From Caldicellulosiruptor danielii (GTDB taxonomy: Bacteria; Bacillota; Thermoanaerobacteria; Caldicellulosiruptorales; Caldicellulosiruptoraceae): DNA of 64,000 nucleotides. Positions 38,620 to 46,495 of this stretch are shown here, piece by piece (position 1 is the first letter of the stretch; each line of letters begins with the position of its first letter). The DNA is taken from positions 2,040,001-2,104,000 of the forward strand of contig NZ_CP139957.1 of assembly GCF_034343125.1 (NCBI RefSeq), read 5' to 3'. The translations under genes and the position numbers were made by a program. Below the pieces are notes generated by a model. That model was not told where the DNA came from. It saw only the letters and a list, made by a program, of their open reading frames with translations, and did not search any database.

Positions 38620-38756
38620 ATTATACCACACAAAAAAAACAAAAACCACAGCCTAAAAGCTGTGGTAGTTTTTATTTTTTATATTTTTGTAGGACAGGTT
38701 CTAAGTGCACTTCTCCTAACTGCTTTTATTATACACCCTGTTTGCAGGTTTTGCAA
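38620..38756 (-). promoter_or_regulatory. Two promoters with leader and terminator before the HicB-like gene
   Basis: Minus strand distal promoter TTGCAA, 17 nt, TATAAT (38756-38728); leader with ACCTGTCCTACAAAAATAT; terminator ACCACAGC...GCTGTGGT plus T tract (38666-38640); proximal GTGTGGTATAAT at 38631-38620. Confidence 0.7.
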
Positions 38757-38786
38757 TAGTGGTTTGAACAGAAATTCTAATGGTTT

Positions 38787-38972
38787 CTAATACTCATCGT
38801 CTACACTTTTTGGTTTTATTTTGGTTTTCTGACTCTCATGGCTGTTGCTGTCTATAACGTCGTTATAATTTTTTATTACGGTGTTATTTTGAAGTTTTAT
38901 AACTGACTCACGAATTACCGTTATAACATCTTCTGGCAGACTGGCTATTTGTAGGTGAAATACAAAAAACAA
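38787..38972 (-). CDS. Doubtful small ORF, possible gene remnant
   Basis: 61 codons from a TTG without a ribosome site; the frame is open a few codons further up to a TGA. Polar C-terminus (SQKTKIKPKSVDDEY). The DNA contains three GTTATAAC/TATAACG half-palindromes that may matter more than the reading frame. Not recognised. Confidence 0.3.
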   Translation of the reverse strand: MFFVFHLQIASLPEDVITVIRESVIKLQNNTVIKNYNDVIDSNSHESQKTKIKPKSVDDEY

Positions 38973-39020
38973 ACGCTGTGAACTTCAACGCAAAGCAAAC
39001 TTATTTGCTCATAAAAACCG

Positions 39021-39048
39021 AAGTCGCCCTCACAACTGAGGACGACTT
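39021..39048 (-). terminator. Terminator of the Doc-like pair
   Basis: Minus strand AAGTCGTCCTCA, 4-nt loop, TGAGGGCGACTT, then CGGTTTTTAT. Confidence 0.75.
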
Positions 39049-39089
39049 CTCCGCTCCTTCTGCACTTGGCAGATAAGCTATTTAGCTTT

Positions 39090-39482
39090 TTACCTCTTCT
39101 TTCTTTCTACGTGTTCAATAGTCCAACTTTTAACTTGTTCTCTGTCATATTTTCCTTCTGCAATTCCTACTCCCAACTCTACCAATTCTTCATCCGAGCA
39201 CTCCAATTGCATATCGTTTATATCACATAAAACTGCCATTAATGTTATACCCAGTCGTTTATTCCCATCAATCAACGGGTGATTTTTTATAATATTGTAA
39301 CACACTGCTGCTATTTTATCGAAAACTGTTGGATAAAGTTCAACCCCATCGAACGTTTGAAATGCACTTTCCAATGATGCTCTCAGCAGCCCTTCATCAC
39401 GAATACCATAACTCCCTCCGCTTTCAATTACAAGTCTTTTGTATATATCCAGTACTTTTTCATACGGAATTGTCCTCATCAT
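39090..39482 (-). CDS. doc: Doc-type Fic-domain toxin, 130 aa
   Basis: Fic core motif HPLIDGNKRLGI matches the Doc consensus HxFxDxNKR; N-terminal IPYEKVLDIYKRL and GSYGIRDEGLLRASL are typical. Doc phosphorylates EF-Tu. Start overlaps the antitoxin stop (TGATG), giving a coupled pair. Confidence 0.9.
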   Translation of the reverse strand: MMRTIPYEKVLDIYKRLVIESGGSYGIRDEGLLRASLESAFQTFDGVELYPTVFDKIAAVCYNIIKNHPLIDGNKRLGITLMAVLCDINDMQLECSDEELVELGVGIAEGKYDREQVKSWTIEHVERKKR

Positions 39483-39661
39483 CTCTTAGCAAGTTCCATC
39501 AAAGCATTTCTGTGTTTTTTTATAAATCTTTCCACTGCGTCATCTATTTCTTTGTTTTCAACTTTTTCTTTGCTCAATTCCTTTACAAAATTCAATACTT
39601 TCATCTGCTGCTCTGGTGATAGGTCAATAACTCTTTTGTAGATTTCTTTTGCTATCCACAT
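39479..39661 (-). CDS. Antitoxin of the Doc-like toxin, 60 aa
   Basis: Small charged protein (AKEIYKRVIDLSPEQQMKVLNFV) directly before doc with overlapping stop/start, as expected for an antitoxin. Not a clear Phd sequence; assigned by position. SD AGGAG 8 nt upstream. TATAAT at about 39694. Confidence 0.7.
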   Translation of the reverse strand: MWIAKEIYKRVIDLSPEQQMKVLNFVKELSKEKVENKEIDDAVERFIKKHRNALMELAKR

Positions 39662-39869
39662 GGCAAAAAACTCCTGAGTGCAAGGTTTTCTAATGATAAT
39701 TATATCACAAAACAGTGTGTTTATTCTACAAAAATCTTATCTTTTACAGTCCTCTTCTGGCTCAGGGTGATTCTGCAAATCCAGTATTCTCATGATTTTT
39801 GAAATACTGTCAAACCCCAAAAGGGCTTTGAAGCCAACCTGAATGAACCAGAATTATTGCCTTTTTTCT

Positions 39870-39985
39870 GTTCCCTGCTATGAAAACGTTTCCATAAGGT
39901 TTATACGTTGCAATTGCACCAGTAGCTACCTTTTGCCTTGACCAAAAGCCCTTCTCAGATTTGGCTACTGGAACAGAATGCAGAT
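39870..39985. repeat. Degenerate intergenic repeat A with cre-like palindrome
   Basis: Holds TGAAAACGTTTCCA (fits the CcpA cre pattern TGNAANCGNTNNCA) and CAAAAGCCCTTCTCAG; similar units at 42080-42220 and 42340-42500. The sequence 39740-40027 otherwise has no gene; a 50-codon frame crosses it (SEKGFWSRQKVATGAIATYK) with no start site, so it may be coding debris. Confidence 0.5.
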
Positions 39986-40027
39986 GTCATCATGTTTTGA
40001 GATTTGGTCTGTGCCTTCTTTAATTGA

Positions 40028-40060
40028 AAAAGCCCTGAAACAAATCAGGGCTTTTGTTGC
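40028..40060 (-). terminator. Terminator overlapping stop of the 40045..40419 gene
   Basis: Minus strand AAAGCCCTGATTTGTTTCAGGGCTTTTT; the TGA stop lies in the first arm. Confidence 0.8.
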
Positions 40061-40419
40061 TGTTTTTCTTGCTCTTTTCTTCGGTTTTCCATGACTATCT
40101 CACGAACTGATTTGTAGTTCGGGTCTTTTTTCTTTTGCTCATAAACGTCAACTACAGTATCGCAAGGAAAATAGAATGTGACTACATATTCGTCTTCGGA
40201 AATTCTTTTAACTATTGCTGTTTTTTCTTCGCCGACAAAGCCTTTTCTGTCGTTTATCTCTATTTCATCTTTTTGCAAGCATTTAAGCACAAATTGGCGA
40301 ATTTCTTCTTGGGTTGGCATGTCTTCAATATCTTCATACTTTTTAGGGTCAAACTCTTTTGAAAAGGTTATTTTGGGTTCTTTTCGCTCAAAGGAGATTA
40401 TCTTATCATTTCTTTTCAT
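40045..40419 (-). CDS. Hypothetical acidic/basic protein, paralogue of 59454..60008, 124 aa
   Basis: Shares QFVLKCLQKDE and KRISEDEYVV..CDTVVD with KFVLECLENDD and KRLSEDEYEI..CHAVID of 59454..60008. Preceded by a gene whose paralogue precedes 59454, so the two-gene unit was duplicated. ATG at 40419 behind AGGGAGAG. Family unknown; an antitoxin role is possible. Confidence 0.7.
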   Translation of the reverse strand: MKRNDKIISFERKEPKITFSKEFDPKKYEDIEDMPTQEEIRQFVLKCLQKDEIEINDRKGFVGEEKTAIVKRISEDEYVVTFYFPCDTVVDVYEQKKKDPNYKSVREIVMENRRKEQEKQQQKP

Positions 40420-40459
40420 GTTACTTCTCTCCCTTCAGTTTTTCTTATAGAGAAAACAA

Positions 40460-40508
40460 AAGGCGGAGCTGTTGCCTTATGTTTTCTCTACCACCACTCC
40501 GCCTTTTG
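40460..40508 (-). terminator. Terminator after the 40523..40843 gene
   Basis: Minus strand AAAAGGCGGAG ... CTCCGCCTTTTG stem with long loop and T tract. Confidence 0.75.
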
Positions 40509-40522
40509 TTGTATTTACTTTT

Positions 40523-40843
40523 CTATGCTGCTTCTTCCCAAACGTCTATTATCTCAGCGTCGTGGACTTTTAACCCATCCACCTTGTCCAGTAGTGTGAT
40601 AATCTCAATGTTAATCCAATACCCACCTGCTACTATACGGACAAGTACTGACTTCTGACGTGTCCAGTTCCTAACCCAGCATTTTGTTCCGGTTTTGAAA
40701 TCTAAAAGTTCTACAGCAAGCGATAGAGTTGCTATAACATCTTCTGGTGTGAAAAGCCTTTCTACTTCCCTTTCTGTAGAGTGCTTGGACCAATCCAGAT
40801 AGCACTCCAAACCATCTATTGTGATTTCTTCTGGGTGATACAT
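40523..40843 (-). CDS. DUF4258-like protein, paralogue of 60130..60453, 106 aa
   Basis: Begins with ITIDGLECYLDWSKHSTEREVERLFT; paralogue at 60130 has TITIDGIECELVWKTHSTIRRATR. The H-S-T-x-R signature and following helix recall DUF4258/BrnT-like toxins of the RelE class. With 40045..40419 it may be a toxin-antitoxin-like pair. ATG at 40843 after the SD of a perfect paired element. Confidence 0.65.
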   Translation of the reverse strand: MYHPEEITIDGLECYLDWSKHSTEREVERLFTPEDVIATLSLAVELLDFKTGTKCWVRNWTRQKSVLVRIVAGGYWINIEIITLLDKVDGLKVHDAEIIDVWEEAA

Positions 40844-40850
40844 CTCCGAC

Positions 40851-40895
40851 TCTCCCCCTTGCTAACTTTGGTTTGCTAACTTCCAAAGCAAGGGG
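40851..40895 (-). promoter_or_regulatory. Paired AGTTAGC element with anti-SD helix
   Basis: Minus strand CCCCCTTGC ... AGTTAGC, 7 nt, AGTTAGC, AAGGGGG. CCCCCTTGC pairs with GCAAGGGGG. A second ACTCCCCCTTG copy lies further 5' (40898-40918), offering an alternative arm. Confidence 0.8.
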
Positions 40896-40940
40896 GGGAG
40901 TTTGGGCAAGGGGGAGTGGGAGTACCGCTTGCTACTATTA

Positions 40941-41126
40941 GTTATACCACGTTTTGAAAAAAAGCTACATAAAAATTTTTTGCTTAAAAACACAAAAGCC
41001 CTGGTATTTTGGAACCAGGGCTAACTTTTGTTTGCCAACTTTTATTTTTTATATTTTTGTAGGACAGGTTTTAAACATGGTTTTGCTAGTTAACTTTGTT
41101 ATACACCTGTTTGTGAAGTTTTGCAA
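40941..41126 (-). promoter_or_regulatory. Distal promoter, leader, terminator with AGTTNGC pair, proximal promoter
   Basis: Minus strand, in order: TTGCAA-17-TATAAC (41126-41098); leader ACCTGTCCTACAAAAATAT; AGTTGGC, 7 nt, AGTTAGCC entering terminator AGCCCTGG...CCAGGGCT plus TTTTG (41040-40993); TGTAGC-17-TATAAC (40969-40941). The fullest example of the composite control region; it feeds the 40.8 and 40.4 kb genes. Confidence 0.75.
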
Positions 41127-41160
41127 TACTATTCTCAGTATGGTTTTGCTGACTATTTTA

Positions 41161-41189
41161 ATTATACATCGAATTTTTAAGTTTTGCAA
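41161..41189 (-). promoter_or_regulatory. Additional promoter
   Basis: Minus strand TTGCAA, 17 nt, TATAAT, followed by AGCAAAACCATACTG, the same early leader sequence as other cassettes. Lies between the antitoxin stop and the next promoter. Confidence 0.65.
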
Positions 41190-41210
41190 CATGGTTTGAA
41201 AACAGTGTTC

Positions 41211-41384
41211 TTATTGTTTCAGTATTTCTTTCCCATTTTCTTCTTTAAACTCTTCTAACTCTTTCCTGACTTTTTCTGCTCTTTTGTGTACGTACTCTAA
41301 AAATTCTTGCAAAGTCATATTTTTTGTTTCTTCATAGAATTTCTCCTGAAACCGATGAATTTCTTGCATTACAGCATTTTCCAT
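41211..41384 (-). CDS. Putative antitoxin next to PIN toxin, 57 aa
   Basis: Short helical, highly charged protein (QEFLEYVHKRAEKVRKELEEF). ATG at 41384 with GAGGAG 8 nt upstream inside the end of the PIN gene. Order toxin-antitoxin is the reverse of usual. Assigned by position. Confidence 0.6.
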   Translation of the reverse strand: MENAVMQEIHRFQEKFYEETKNMTLQEFLEYVHKRAEKVRKELEEFKEENGKEILKQ

Positions 41385-41389
41385 AATTA

Positions 41390-41866
41390 TCACTCCTCAT
41401 CTACAAGCATATTGGGAGCCACAATTTGAATTTCTTTATAACCTGTCAGTTTATTAATCCCATTGACTCCCAATATAGTTTTCGCACGTACAATATGTTT
41501 GAAGTTCCATGATACAAGAAAATCGCAGTTTGAAACGGTTGCTGCTGCTATGTGCAATGCGTCTGACTTGTACTTCTGTGGTATAATACCTGCGTTAACA
41601 TACTTTTCTGCAAGACTGTTAATTTCTTCTGTTAGAAATATTAGGTTATAATTGATTTGTCGCAAATAATTATACAAGTTGGACCTTTTTACAGGGTTAC
41701 AACCTTCAAGCTCTATCAGCACAAGTTCCGAGATGAAAATAATATATTCCTGTTTTCTGCAACTGTCCCAGAGTTTTTGGGTTATCAATGTATTCTGAGG
41801 GTTATCTGGATGGTCCAGATGGCTTATTACTGAAGTATCAAAGTATAGTGTTAATTTTTTATTCAT
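41390..41866 (-). CDS. PIN-domain ribonuclease (VapC-like), 158 aa
   Basis: PIN acidic residues: Asp in LYFDTSVISHLD, Glu in ELVLIELEG, Asp in SDALHIAAATVSNCDFLVSWN. VapC-type PIN toxins cleave tRNA or rRNA. ATG at 41866 after GAGGGG of a paired element variant. Confidence 0.88.
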   Translation of the reverse strand: MNKKLTLYFDTSVISHLDHPDNPQNTLITQKLWDSCRKQEYIIFISELVLIELEGCNPVKRSNLYNYLRQINYNLIFLTEEINSLAEKYVNAGIIPQKYKSDALHIAAATVSNCDFLVSWNFKHIVRAKTILGVNGINKLTGYKEIQIVAPNMLVDEE

Positions 41867-41876
41867 TTTTCCCCTC

Positions 41877-41909
41877 TTTCTTTTTTTGGCAAACTATAAA
41901 TAGCAAGCT
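41877..41909 (-). promoter_or_regulatory. Paired element variant before the PIN gene
   Basis: Minus strand AGCTTGC (one change), 7 nt, AGTTTGC, then a purine tract and GAGGGG. No anti-SD arm obvious. Confidence 0.55.
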
Positions 41910-41927
41910 TCTACCCAATGAGAGCTT

Positions 41928-42010
41928 TTATTTTTACATTTTTGTAGACAGGTTTTAAACACAGTTTTGCCGACTGTTTTTATTATACACCTTATTTGTA
42001 GTTTCTGCAA
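41928..42010 (-). promoter_or_regulatory. Promoter and conserved leader of the PIN-antitoxin operon
   Basis: Minus strand TTGCAG, 17 nt, TATAAT (42010-41982), then GCAAAACTGTGTTTAAAACC and TGTCTACAAAAATGTAAAAA. No terminator between it and the PIN gene. Confidence 0.7.
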
Positions 42011-42079
42011 TACAATTTAAGCAGAGATTTTTAGGACTTTTAGACTACTGGACAAGGTATTGTACGGGCTGTGAAGTTA

Positions 42080-42220
42080 TCTTTTCTTCCTGCTGGGTAT
42101 TGTGTGAGGCTTTTGTGTAATCGTTTACGCTCATTCCTCTTGACCTTTTTGCTATTGTTGTTGATACCCCGGCTCAAAAGCCCTTCTCAGGTCTGGTTGC
42201 AACCTGCAACCCCAGTAGTT
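42080..42220. repeat. Degenerate intergenic repeat B with cre-like palindrome
   Basis: Contains TGTAATCGTTTACG, then CTCAAAAGCCCTTCTCAGG and a CCAGTAG word. Related to repeat A and repeat C. Sits just upstream of the PIN operon promoter. Confidence 0.55.
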
Positions 42221-42231
42221 GTCTGTGACTT

Positions 42232-42312
42232 TTTTTATATTTTTGTAGGACATTTTCAGAACACAATTTCGCTACCAGAATCTATTATACACTTGGGTTC
42301 TAGTTTTTGCAA
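42232..42312 (-). promoter_or_regulatory. Promoter and conserved leader upstream of repeat B
   Basis: Minus strand TTGCAA, 17 nt, TATAAT (42312-42284), then AGCGAAATTGTGTT and TGTCCTACAAAAATATAAAA. It reads into repeat B. Confidence 0.65.
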
Positions 42313-42339
42313 CAGTTTTTTTTACTGCTGGGCGTGAGG

Positions 42340-42500
42340 AAAGCTTATGCTCCTATCGGACATTTGTTTGCTTTTAAATGTAATCGTTTACAGTTATTCT
42401 TCCCCTGCTTTTCCCTTCCGTGCGACTTTGCAGGTAGCTCGAAAGCCCTTTTCAGGTTTGGTTGCTACCTGCAAGCCCAGTAGTTATCTGGGTTTTTGCA
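42340..42500. repeat. Degenerate intergenic repeat C with cre-like palindrome
   Basis: Contains TGTAATCGTTTACA (perfect fit to TGNAANCGNTNNCA) and a hairpin GCAGGTAGC...GCTACCTGC whose loop holds GAAAGCCCTTTTCAGG. The region 41910-42568 has no gene; it holds repeats B, C and two promoters. Confidence 0.55.
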
Positions 42501-42568
42501 ATACTCCCGTGCCCGATTAGGGCTTTTGGTTTACCTTTTTTGTGGGCGCATCTGCAAGGTACCTGTTT

Positions 42569-43171
42569 CTATCTCTTCCGCATTACAGTTTTCTTTGTTC
42601 TGCACTTCTTAGCTTTCTTAATAGCTTGGGCTTCTAATATCCTAATGTTAATGATTTTTGTCAATTTCTGATTTCTGCAGTATTTGTCAGGTTGGCGACG
42701 TTGAACCATGAAAGTTTCTGGGCAATATACGTTAGGATTTTCCCTTTTTTCTTTGATACCTAAATAGAGATATATTGGTTTGTTTTTTTCTATTTCTATC
42801 TTAAAGAATAGAAATTTGGACTGAAGCTTGCAATTTTGTAATTTATGTGGGTCAAAATCAATTATGTACTTACTGGTTGCTAGAATGGGTAGCAGGTCGA
42901 AAAATTTTATTCTTTCTTCGATTTCAGCAAAAAATTTGCTTGTTTTTAGGTAGGAAAAAGTTATTTTTCGCTCATTTAAACTTTTGAAAACCTTGTCAGG
43001 AGGAGCTTTTGATAAGTTTGGTTTGTCAACAAGTTTATGTAGACCTAACAAATGTCTTAAATTTCTTTTACCACATTTAAGAATTATTTCTCTTCCATCA
43101 TCCAAAGTATATATGAAATACTTCCCCATCACTTTTTTGTAATTCTCAAGTGCTCGTTGCAATTCGTCCAC
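42569..43171 (-). CDS. PBECR4-like putative nuclease-fold protein, 200 aa
   Basis: YFIYTLDDGREIILKCGKRNLRHLLGLHKL resembles the PBECR4 (phage Barnase-EndoU-colicin-RelE-like) signature with the HLLGL block; these are predicted RNases of phages and mobile elements. C-terminus is strongly basic. GTG start at 43171 after AAGGGGG; earlier codons cross a terminator hairpin. Family call is from memory of the motif, so moderate. Confidence 0.6.
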   Translation of the reverse strand: MDELQRALENYKKVMGKYFIYTLDDGREIILKCGKRNLRHLLGLHKLVDKPNLSKAPPDKVFKSLNERKITFSYLKTSKFFAEIEERIKFFDLLPILATSKYIIDFDPHKLQNCKLQSKFLFFKIEIEKNKPIYLYLGIKEKRENPNVYCPETFMVQRRQPDKYCRNQKLTKIINIRILEAQAIKKAKKCRTKKTVMRKR

Positions 43172-43191
43172 AAAAGAAAAAACCCCCTTAA

Positions 43192-43226
43192 AGCAAAAAC
43201 CTTGGGTGTTAACACCCAAGGTTTTA
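43192..43226. terminator. Perfect palindromic terminator in the leader
   Basis: AAAACCTTGGGTGTTAACACCCAAGGTTTT, 15-bp stem, 20 nt before the SD of the PBECR4-like gene; T tract on the minus strand. Confidence 0.8.
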
Positions 43227-43390
43227 CTCTTATTATTTCACCTTCGTGTTTTGTTTTCGGGATGACTTTTCATCCCTAGCCAGCAGGGCTCCAACACGAA
43301 GGAAAAGCCCCAACATGTGCTTCTATATTTTACGTCCCGAAGCTAGGGAGAGGCTCGCTGGCAAAGCCCGGTATGCTTCTAAGGTGCATA
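43227..43390 (-). ncRNA. Candidate structured leader RNA upstream of the PBECR4-like gene
   Basis: About 160 nt with many perfect helices on the minus strand: GGTATGC...GCATACC, CCTTCGTGTT...AACACGAAGG, GGGATG-6-CATCCC. TCCCTAGC and GCCAGC can pair with GCTAGGGA and GCTGGC, but those two targets are adjacent and overlap (GCTGGCTAGGGA), so the helices exclude each other. It lies between a promoter and a terminator. GC-rich compared with surroundings. No known riboswitch recognised. Confidence 0.55.
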
Positions 43391-43426
43391 CCACACCTTT
43401 CACTTTAATTATACCCATTGCACTTT

Positions 43427-43455
43427 TATTATATACCACTTTTTATTTGGTTGCA
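43427..43455 (-). promoter_or_regulatory. Promoter of the structured leader
   Basis: Minus strand TTGCAA, 17 nt ending GTGGTAT, TATAAT. A second TATAAT occurs at 43412-43407 without a clear -35. Confidence 0.65.
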
Positions 43456-43545
43456 AGACAATTATTACCAATGTCCTTTTATGGATTTCCGTACGTTTGG
43501 TGAACTCTCTGCATCACACCTGATGCAAATTATCGCATTTGCTTT

Positions 43546-46419
43546 CTAGACAAAAATTTTGTTGACCAGGTCTTTTTCTGTAGTATACTCAATTACTCTT
43601 TTACTTAGTTCTTTCAAGAGTGTATCAAAATATTTATGCTTTCCCCACAGGTCTTTATCACCTATTACTATGACTCTATATTTAGCTCTTGTCAGTGCTA
43701 CATTTAAGATATTCGGCTCTGAAGATGCCCAGCTTATAGCCCCTTCGCTGTTTTCATCAGCACCAAGACATATAATTACATTGTTGGCTTGCTTACCTTG
43801 AAAGCTGTGTATTGTACCAACTATTTCATCAACTATATGTTCCCATTCTTCTTTCTTAAAATTTATATTATGCAAAGGTATTCTCTTCAACTCAGTAGAT
43901 ATACTATTTTTAACAGCTTTAAAAGGAGAAATAATAAAAAGCTCTTCGGTTAATTTAATTTCATTTTGAACTATTAGTGCTCGGTGCAAAAATTCCTGTA
44001 CGATGGTTTTTACTACTTGCCCCTGTTTTTCAACATAATGTCTTCCACTGCATTTACCCTTTACATTTATCCAGAAGCTATCTTTAAAAACTGTCCGTAA
44101 TTTTTCTGGTTTATTCACATCAAAAATCATAAGATTATTATAAGCTATTTCATTCGCCACTGTGAACATTGGGTCCATACAACGTTTATGTACTCTAAGG
44201 GGACATCCTACCCACATATTACTAATTCTTGCACCAAATTTGCTGGCTCTGTCTGCTACAATTTGTACAGAATCAGTTTCGGTTATACGTGGTGTGCATG
44301 AATTGCTATTTTCTTCCTTTTTGAAGATTCCATATGCTTTGAATACATTATTGATAACAAACGATGGTATTTTTACAACAGGTGGAATCTGCAAAGGATC
44401 TCCCACTATTATTGCTCTTTTACTTCTGAGAAGCGCACCGATAAAGTGCTGGGGCAGCACCTGACCAGCTTCATCCACAATCAGCCAGCCAATGATTTCG
44501 TCATCAACATCTCTGAACATATTACTCAATGATGCAAGTGTTGTTGAAACAACGGGAACAATTAAAAAGAAAGTATACCACAGTTCTTTTACCTTTTCTG
44601 AAGGTAGTGATTCGTTTTTTCTCATATATTTAATAAACCTCTCCAGATTACATATAAACTTTTCTTTGTTTGCAGCAATAACAGCCTGATGTAATTGAAG
44701 AGCTCTTACAAAAACTTCGTCGCGTATATCATTGAAATATTTGCTTAACCATGGAAATGATTTGTGAATTTCACGCTCACTTTGAGACCAGAACTCCTGG
44801 GAAGGAAGTTTCATATCATCAGGAAAATATCTAGCAAAAATTTTCTTCAGACAAAACTCCCCAGCTCTGGCTACTAAATGGCTGAATTTAAACTTAGTTC
44901 CCTCAAGTTTCAAAAAAAACTCTATAGCTCTGTAACATTTCTGAATACGTCTAAACTTTTTAAAGGCATGATTGAACCTTCTTTTACATAGTTCCCACTT
45001 AACTTGCGGTATAGAAGAAAACAGTTCATTAATATACTTTTCCAGAGCACTGAAAAACTTTTCTCTGTTTTCTTTTTTGCCCAAAACTGCTGAAATTAAT
45101 GCCCAGTATTGCTGTCCGTTTTCGCTTGATACAGGGAATTCTGTTTTCTTACTATCTTCATTGTTTTCCTCTTTATAGTCGTATATCAGTTTAGCTTCAT
45201 CTTTAAAATAATCCAATTCATATTTTTCAAGACAGGACCAGTCAACTGAATCTAGGACCGGTATTTCTTTAGTAACGTTTTCCACAGCTTTGTTGTTGGC
45301 AGAAGCAACTACAATGTTAAAGTTTTTTAAAGCGGAATTGACGACATTTACATCACCCACGAGCCCTTTAAATAGTTCTTCTGGTGAACGAAACCTGACA
45401 AGTTCAAGCGCTCTTAGTGTGATGATATTGGCTATAATATCTTTAAGAATAGTAGTTTTACCAGTACCCGGTGGTCCATTAATTGAGAATATTTTTTCAG
45501 TTTCAATTGTGTTGAAAATAAGGTTAACAGCTATTTGCTGCATAAGGTTTAAATTTATCTTTTCAGGATGTATCCACCTTGCAGGAGTTATATATTTGGC
45601 AGTAGTGTATTTTCTAAGTTTCAATAATTCTGTAAGATCTTCTTTTTGTTGCGACTCAGTAAAGAAACGAAATAGGATGGGATTTAAATTATCGTTTTCA
45701 AGCCGTTTGAGTGCTTTCTCAATATCTTTCAAATAGAAACTATCAAAAAGGTCCTGTGATTGTATTTCATCATCTTCGTCTATTTCATTTTCCACGTTAG
45801 TTTTTTGTTTGTCTTTTTTGAACCACTTAACACCAAATGAATTGACAAATTCTTTGTTTTCAACAGGATAAATGTCGTAACAAAATTTTTGAAGTAAATT
45901 CATATAGATTTCTTTAACATTAATGTTCTCCTGATTTTTTACTATCTTTTCAAACTCGTCTTTCAGGTTCTGAGCAAACTCTGCGAATTTTTCTCCTAGT
46001 TCATAGTCTCCAGTTTGCCTTTCTTTATTTTTCCCCTGCAATATTTCTGGGTTTTCCCTTTCAATAGTACTTTCATTCTCCAGTTGTTTAAGAGCCCACA
46101 ACGTAGAAGACACTTTAAAACTATTGTCTTTATATTTTCCGTTTTCATCGATATCAAAATAGAACCAGTATAGCTTTTCATCCCCTTTTTCAGGGTGGTT
46201 ATATGGCTGGTTATAAATTTTTTCAAAAGCTTTTTTTACTTCCTGGTAACTATAGATTCCAAGGAAAACTCTGCAATTTGTAAAATATTTTGGACTCCTA
46301 ATTTCAGAAAAGTTGTTTATAAAGACCCCATTGGAAATAGTAGCAGGTTGTAATAATTCAAGTTTTTGATATGCCAGTAATATTCTTCTCATCTCATCTT
46401 TTGCAATTGTATCTACCAT
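43546..46419 (-). CDS. SF1 (Upf1/DNA2-like) helicase, 957 aa
   Basis: N-terminal 300 residues unlike known helicases, then SF1B motifs: Walker A NGPPGTGKTTILKDI, motif II VDEAGQV (DEAG), motif III GDPLQIPP, motif V VGTIHSFQGKQANNVI and motif VI LNVALTRAKYRVIV. A long insertion lies between motifs Ia and II. Such large SF1 helicases with a private N-terminal domain are common in mobile elements and defence islands. ATG at 46419 after AAAGGAG. Has none of the CTACTGG words common elsewhere, consistent with separate origin. Confidence 0.88.
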   Translation of the reverse strand: MVDTIAKDEMRRILLAYQKLELLQPATISNGVFINNFSEIRSPKYFTNCRVFLGIYSYQEVKKAFEKIYNQPYNHPEKGDEKLYWFYFDIDENGKYKDNSFKVSSTLWALKQLENESTIERENPEILQGKNKERQTGDYELGEKFAEFAQNLKDEFEKIVKNQENINVKEIYMNLLQKFCYDIYPVENKEFVNSFGVKWFKKDKQKTNVENEIDEDDEIQSQDLFDSFYLKDIEKALKRLENDNLNPILFRFFTESQQKEDLTELLKLRKYTTAKYITPARWIHPEKINLNLMQQIAVNLIFNTIETEKIFSINGPPGTGKTTILKDIIANIITLRALELVRFRSPEELFKGLVGDVNVVNSALKNFNIVVASANNKAVENVTKEIPVLDSVDWSCLEKYELDYFKDEAKLIYDYKEENNEDSKKTEFPVSSENGQQYWALISAVLGKKENREKFFSALEKYINELFSSIPQVKWELCKRRFNHAFKKFRRIQKCYRAIEFFLKLEGTKFKFSHLVARAGEFCLKKIFARYFPDDMKLPSQEFWSQSEREIHKSFPWLSKYFNDIRDEVFVRALQLHQAVIAANKEKFICNLERFIKYMRKNESLPSEKVKELWYTFFLIVPVVSTTLASLSNMFRDVDDEIIGWLIVDEAGQVLPQHFIGALLRSKRAIIVGDPLQIPPVVKIPSFVINNVFKAYGIFKKEENSNSCTPRITETDSVQIVADRASKFGARISNMWVGCPLRVHKRCMDPMFTVANEIAYNNLMIFDVNKPEKLRTVFKDSFWINVKGKCSGRHYVEKQGQVVKTIVQEFLHRALIVQNEIKLTEELFIISPFKAVKNSISTELKRIPLHNINFKKEEWEHIVDEIVGTIHSFQGKQANNVIICLGADENSEGAISWASSEPNILNVALTRAKYRVIVIGDKDLWGKHKYFDTLLKELSKRVIEYTTEKDLVNKIFV

Positions 46420-46495
46420 CCTGCCAACTCCTTTCGTTACATGCAAACCATGATTTGAAAATATTTTTTACTCTGTATTATTTCGAGGGTAGAAA

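Follow-up and report, generated by a model that had tools for sequence, protein, structure and literature searches.

What does a structured RNA do when it is encoded immediately ahead of a nuclease-like gene? The question is raised by a locus of Caldicellulosiruptor danielii (contig NZ_CP139957.1), which was analysed within a window of 64,000 nt (the whole stretch of DNA from position 2,040,001 to 2,104,000 of the contig). The first-pass annotation had described a structured leader with mutually exclusive helices and a terminator next to it, and read it as an expression platform. By analogy with known systems, we consider it probable that the locus is a module of a structured-RNA antitoxin and a BECR-family RNase-like toxin (PBECR4), which would work like the type III and AbiF systems, and that the window RNA is a divergent counterpart of the drum RNA.

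Layout of the locus and the PBECR4 protein

The elements of the locus lie on the minus strand in the order promoter, structured RNA, terminator and PBECR4 gene, as follows.

43428..43456, minus strand: promoter TTGCAA-17-TATAAT (10/12 consensus, spacer 17)
43241..43399, minus strand: structured RNA core, the proposed antitoxin RNA (from conservation, fold z-score and position)
43370..43392, minus strand: 5´ hairpin P1, GGUAUGC/GCAUACC (43392-43386 with 43376-43370), invariant in four genomes
43357..43362, minus strand: 5´ strand of helix GCCAGC:GCUGGC, with a compensatory C-G/G-C change relative to three relatives
43342..43349, minus strand: UCCCUAGC, alternative or pseudoknot partner of GCUAGGGA (43280-43273), from the sequence
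43293..43302, minus strand: 5´ strand of the 10-bp helix CCUUCGUGUU:AACACGAAGG, pairing in four genomes
43279..43284, minus strand: 3´ strand of helix GCCAGC:GCUGGC, with the compensatory change
43259..43276, minus strand: 3´ hairpin GGGAUGA/UCAUCCC (43276-43270 with 43265-43259), perfectly paired and similar to the drum 3´ module
43241..43250, minus strand: 3´ strand of the 10-bp helix, AACACGAAGG, pairing in four genomes
43195..43225, minus strand: intrinsic terminator, near-palindrome AAAACCTTGGGTGTT AACACCCAAGGTTTTT, from the sequence
42569..43171, minus strand: PBECR4-domain protein of 200 aa with a GTG start, the proposed RNase toxin (PF18813)

Transcription probably starts near 43421, and the structured RNA extends for about 200 nt downstream of the promoter. 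A Shine-Dalgarno sequence (AAGGGGG, at about 43189) precedes the GTG-started PBECR4 gene. The helices listed in the first-pass annotation, including GCCAGC, UCCCUAGC and their target GCUGGCUAGGGA, are all present on this strand. The terminator expected next to them is a near-perfect palindrome at 43196-43225, which could be active on both strands, and the reported G+C excess was also found (51% in the core versus 31–40% in the adjoining 500-base windows). The core is conserved and its folding z-score against shuffles is -3.6, in agreement with the description of a structured RNA before a nuclease-like gene. A plus-strand reading was rejected, as no suitably placed promoter precedes the core on that strand and the fold is slightly weaker (z of -3.1).

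The downstream gene encodes a PBECR4 protein, which matches PF18813 with an E-value of 1.5e-14 and 55.2 bits (Pfam cut-off 27). PF18813 is the sole Pfam family found, with none of the ToxN, CptN or TenpN type, and NCBIfam gave no match for the window protein. PBECR domains were predicted to be endoRNases of the BECR fold, with active sites that comprise a conserved histidine in the N-terminal helix and a C-terminal Ser/Thr (PMC5512222). The family histidine is invariant in 33 proteins, the window protein included. The column of the C-terminal Ser/Thr holds a Lys in the aligned window protein, and Ser/Thr is not conserved there. PBECR4 is proposed to be an RNase toxin. AlphaFold2 modelled the window PBECR4 with a pLDDT of 87 and a second PBECR4 with a pLDDT of 95. 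A PDB structure search with these confident models gave no significant match; BrnT, RelE, HigB2 and ParE appeared only as weak rows (Z of 2–3.6), in a list from which the absence of ToxN is not evidence. A PDB sequence search by the PBECR4 profile gave no match. No PBECR4 was found in the phage collection, and the viral contigs contained one relative (L049), which is 25% identical to the window PBECR4 in the alignment.

Fold of the RNA and its conservation in the genus

GCCAGC and UCCCUAGC have an overlapping target, GCUGGCUAGGGA, at 43284-43273 of the minus strand. Among dinucleotide shuffles, 5% contain an 8-bp and a 6-bp perfect helix that share a target; the competing pair alone is mildly unusual, and conservation is the stronger evidence. 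The overlap of the first description stands, and the mutual exclusion is less firm: the arms follow the order a-b-a'-b', so the helices are not necessarily exclusive and, each trimmed to 6 bp, could coexist as a pseudoknot. UAGGGA, the 3´ side of the UCCCUAGC pairing, also overlaps the GGGAUGA/UCAUCCC hairpin, and UCCCUAGC may act as a switch strand or as a pseudoknot strand, or may not be used. The 10-bp helix CCUUCGUGUU:AACACGAAGG crosses the GCCAGC helix and would create a pseudoknot if both form.

The window genome was compared with eleven congeneric genomes, and the core is present in four: the window's own, G001, G007 and G010. The core is 91–94% identical in the latter three, in which the alignable stretch is confined to the core; the promoter region and the terminator of the window differ from theirs. 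Homologues were inspected for the named pairings, and both are retained; the outcome favours the GCCAGC:GCUGGC pairing. The window helix GCCAGC:GCUGGC becomes GGCAGC:GCUGCC in the other three genomes, a compensatory double change that counts as one event and no more among four close sequences, and the UCCCUAGC pairing is kept in those three at 7 bp as UCCCUAG:CUAGGGA, invariant there. The remaining helices are invariant in the four genomes except for one G-U/A-U change and one broken cell. The 10-bp helix is paired in 97.5% of cells and otherwise invariant.

In the window and in G001, the RNA is followed by the terminator and then by PBECR4, and the two PBECR4 proteins are 76% identical. The terminator itself is kept in both, with a stem of CCTTGGGTG... 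in the window versus CCCTGGGTCA... in G001. G007 carries the RNA as an orphan, without PBECR4; in G010, it also lacks PBECR4 and lies directly ahead of an Abi_2 (AbiF) gene. G001 additionally carries a lone 3´ remnant of a window-type RNA (L130 1501-1550), about 13 kb from the complete module, which was rejected as a second full copy since its similarity is confined to the 3´ third.

These comparisons bear on the reading of the RNA as a cis-acting leader, in which attenuator- or riboswitch-like refolding (GCCAGC versus UCCCUAGC for the common target) would control the terminator and thereby PBECR4, possibly by toxin binding as autoregulation. The terminator directly ahead of the gene and the overlapping alternative helices, at their 5% frequency in shuffles, agree with such a leader. 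However, no conserved antiterminator was found: the window terminator arm is equalled in pairing by 48% of shuffled arms, the terminator arm of G001 pairs at a different site, and the sequence of the terminator varies freely. A promoter of its own precedes the RNA, and the RNA persists without PBECR4 in G007 and G010, which is compatible with an independent role too. The expression platform of the first-pass annotation is thus not upheld, and we regard a cis-acting leader as unlikely. A riboswitch is disfavoured, because neither a conserved antiterminator nor a metabolic gene was found, although autoregulation in response to the toxin keeps a small probability.

The arrangement in G010 could also mean that the RNA is part of an AbiF (Abi_2) module, as it adjoins the Abi_2 gene there. 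However, a separate promoter, hairpin RNA and terminator, which belong to this Abi_2 gene, lie between it and the window-type RNA. The Abi_2 gene of the window genome is located elsewhere; it carries this private leader too (88% identity over 116 nt) and lacks the window RNA, and RF03085 (abiF RNA) gave no match in the window RNA. Since the Abi_2 genes have private leaders, the window RNA is not the AbiF RNA, and we give this assignment very little probability. The private leader of the Abi_2 genes in the genus (L012 1725-1795; L133) reads GAGCUCACC..GGUUGGC..GCCAGCC..GGUGAG followed by a T-run. It is probably a divergent abiF antitoxin RNA, although the Rfam abiF model misses it in G010. AbiF-type and PBECR4 modules coexist in the genus.

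Drum RNA at other PBECR4 loci

The order promoter, RNA, terminator and PBECR4 recurs in Selenomonas (L039), on a Streptococcus suis plasmid (L048) and on Enterococcus plasmids (L050-L052), and the RNA of these loci is the Rfam family drum (RF02958). Rfam types drum as an sRNA, which argues against a cis-acting leader, and does not assign a function to it. In an unbiased test, 84,980 genomes were searched with the PBECR4 protein motif alone, which gave 64 loci, 60 of them scanned with Rfam. Drum lies upstream on the same strand, above the Rfam gathering score, at 50 of the 60 scanned loci, usually with a gap of about 50 nt between the RNA and the start codon. Promoters that match the consensus at 10/12 positions or more were found in 48 of 50 scored loci, at the same place as in the window, and a simple scan detected a terminator in 37 of 50. 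Sub-threshold drum matches are correctly placed at L062 (39.3 bits) and L118 (27.9 bits), the upstream RNAs of L063, L081, L086 and L100 are drum-like by eye, and L046, outside the 64-locus set, carries drum at 43.0 bits. The modules reside on plasmids and in prophage-like and defence-island settings, and AbiH adjoins the module in E. faecalis.

A search from the RNA side found drum in 2 of 398 phylum genomes (0.5%) and in 7 of 200 genomes of one family. PBECR4 directly follows six of the nine drums from this search, L039 included; orphan drums were found in L055, L122 and L125. Extra drums with no obvious second toxin occur beside drum-PBECR4 modules in L072 (3266-3377 and 3646-3758) and in L083 (2061-2176, forming a tandem drum pair), and they may be orphan or duplicated antitoxins. 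An independent trans-acting small RNA that merely neighbours the toxin would account for the own promoter and terminator, for the orphan window-type copies in G007 and G010 and the orphan drums, and for the extra copies in L072 and L083. It sits poorly with the presence of drum at 50 of 60 PBECR4 loci against any drum in about 0.5% of phylum genomes, and we consider it improbable.

The fate of the RNA at decaying loci was consistent with the antitoxin reading. Intact PBECR4 ORFs were found at 52 of the 64 loci, and the upstream RNA is kept in all 52. It adjoins the intact ORF in 51; at the exception, L087, an IS3-type element (773-2298) lies between the drum RNA and the ORF. The remaining 12 loci have broken or shortened ORFs, and nine of them still contain the RNA, which an antidote would lead one to expect. 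Three loci have lost the RNA or its 5´ part, and PBECR4 is broken in all three: the start codon is changed from ATG to ACG in L106, a stop is present at codon 4 in L112, and the protein is truncated in L115. The association between RNA loss and a broken ORF gives a Fisher p of 0.005, or 0.028 if L106 and L112 represent one event, values that are indicative because related genomes are not independent. Across the 64 loci, RNA without a toxin is common and an intact toxin without RNA was not seen, which is the pattern expected of an antidote.

The literature searched, which did not cover the original drum paper (Weinberg 2017), contains no drum-PBECR4 link and no mention of PBECR4 by name; the drum passage of one paper handles drum purely as an RNA family. 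A skipping-rope RNA (RF02924, 502-585, 54 bits), to which no function is assigned, was observed on the same contig stretch as the PBECR4 module of L118.

The window RNA as a putative counterpart of drum and the proposed module

The window RNA gave no match to the drum covariance model at E<=10 (gathering score 43 bits), and neither did the relative L011. The Rfam and covariance search suggested in the first-pass annotation returned nothing at the gathering score over the whole window. At E<=10 it returned for the region only leaders such as rnk_leader and His_leader, which were rejected as chance matches driven by the terminator hairpin.

The window RNA nonetheless resembles drum in its position between a promoter and a terminator upstream of PBECR4 (not in Rfam's definition), its similar length, its 5´ hairpin, its crossing long-range pairings and, tentatively, a 3´ module of UAG, a hairpin, CGAAA and an A-rich segment, after which a strand pairs back. 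In the window, the hairpin GGGAUGA/UCAUCCC is flanked by UA(G) before and CGAAAACAAAACAC after, and AACAC pairs back to GUGUU; in drum, UAG and the hairpin are followed by CGAAAGAAAAUGC, and UGC pairs back. The strict pattern of this module was found in 1.1% of window-sequence shuffles, in 5 of the 850 stretches taken as background and in only 14 of the 44 other PBECR4-upstream regions; the likeness is suggestive only, with modest significance. The window RNA differs from drum in an extra central domain, GCUUC...GAAGC with the loop GGGACGUAAAAUAUA, and in the 10-bp 3´ helix.

The RNA of the viral contig L049 has CUCCCU..GGGACGUWAAAUAUA in common with the window RNA, as well as UCCCU/AGGGA, and the motif GGGACGUWAAAUAUA is in no other viral contig. 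When a window-type covariance model was run against 37 PBECR4 loci, the best hit was L049, at the right place with E=0.09, and the rest were chance. By eye, the non-drum RNA of L120 contains CUUCGG..GAC..GUAAAA..AUAGAAG.CAC as in the window RNA. In the protein tree, the PBECR4s of the window and G001, L049, L120 and Halobacillus are placed outside the group with the majority of drum-associated PBECR4s, a grouping whose support (89/87) is under the strict threshold. The RNA and the toxin appear as if they had diverged together. From its position, size, layout and 3´ module, we take the window RNA to be probably a functional counterpart of drum that has diverged beyond the drum model.

RNA antitoxins are of a kind already known. 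In the type III systems and in the AbiF/RCd22 system of C. difficile, the RNA antitoxin binds the toxin and a terminator keeps the RNA in excess (PMC12373285). The terminator of such modules is constitutive and fixes the proportion of RNA to toxin. The window module resembles the type III systems (ToxIN, CptIN, TenpIN and AbiQ) in the series of promoter, antitoxin RNA, terminator and small RNase-type toxin; in the single transcription unit of RNA gene, terminator and toxin gene, which is found in the window and in relatives; and in the putatively pseudoknotted RNA and the plasmid and phage-defence contexts. In contrast to type III, the window RNA has no tandem repeats (none within 43150-43480) and is much longer than the 34–50 nt type III repeat, and its toxin matches PF18813 instead of ToxN-type families. 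AbiF modules (Abi_2 HEPN toxin with abiF RNA, for example RCd22) likewise place a single leader RNA, with a promoter and a terminator of its own, ahead of the toxin, but the toxin belongs to the HEPN superfamily and the RNA is another, whereas the window partner is PBECR4.

Following this analogy, we infer that PBECR4 is toxic and is neutralised by the RNA. RNA polymerase would mostly stop at the terminator and make abundant short RNA, and occasional read-through would supply a small amount of toxin mRNA. Once folded, the RNA would bind the PBECR4 RNase and silence it. If the short-lived RNA were lost, through plasmid loss or through phage shut-off of transcription, PBECR4 would be freed to cut RNA.

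More tentatively, we lean towards a general proposal, in which drum and its divergent counterparts, the window RNA included, are the antitoxins of PBECR4. They would form a class that is widespread in Bacillota, occurs in some MAGs of Spirochaetota and differs from both ToxIN/CptIN/TenpIN and AbiF. In this class, a BECR RNase would be silenced by one multi-pseudoknot RNA without repeats, which would diverge with its toxin and be orphaned on toxin decay. If true, this would give a function to the orphan Rfam family drum and to the prediction-only Pfam domain PBECR4, and would add a toxin-antitoxin class with silencing by one complex RNA instead of short repeats. The modules on Enterococcus and Streptococcus plasmids and integrative elements could then have a bearing on plasmid maintenance and on phage defence.

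The neighbourhood of the module contains repeats. A direct repeat of 40–90 nt, which carries a TTGCAA-17-TATAAT-like promoter, is present in six copies at 38670-43463, in the vicinity of small toxin-antitoxin-like cassettes (Fic/Doc, PIN-like and PBECR4), as if cassettes were exchanged at a shared promoter repeat. The promoter of the window RNA sits in one of the six copies. This location would suit a palindrome-rich intergenic repeat or DNA element without RNA function, but the core is single-copy in its own genome, where only promoter-repeat fragments match elsewhere, and it shows a compensatory base-pair change and is bounded by a promoter and a terminator on one strand. We consider such an element highly improbable. 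The gene immediately upstream of the RNA-PBECR4 module, at 43546-46446 on the minus strand, encodes an SF1 helicase that PADLOC relates to MkoC, a member of the Mokosh defence family (E=7.7e-68).
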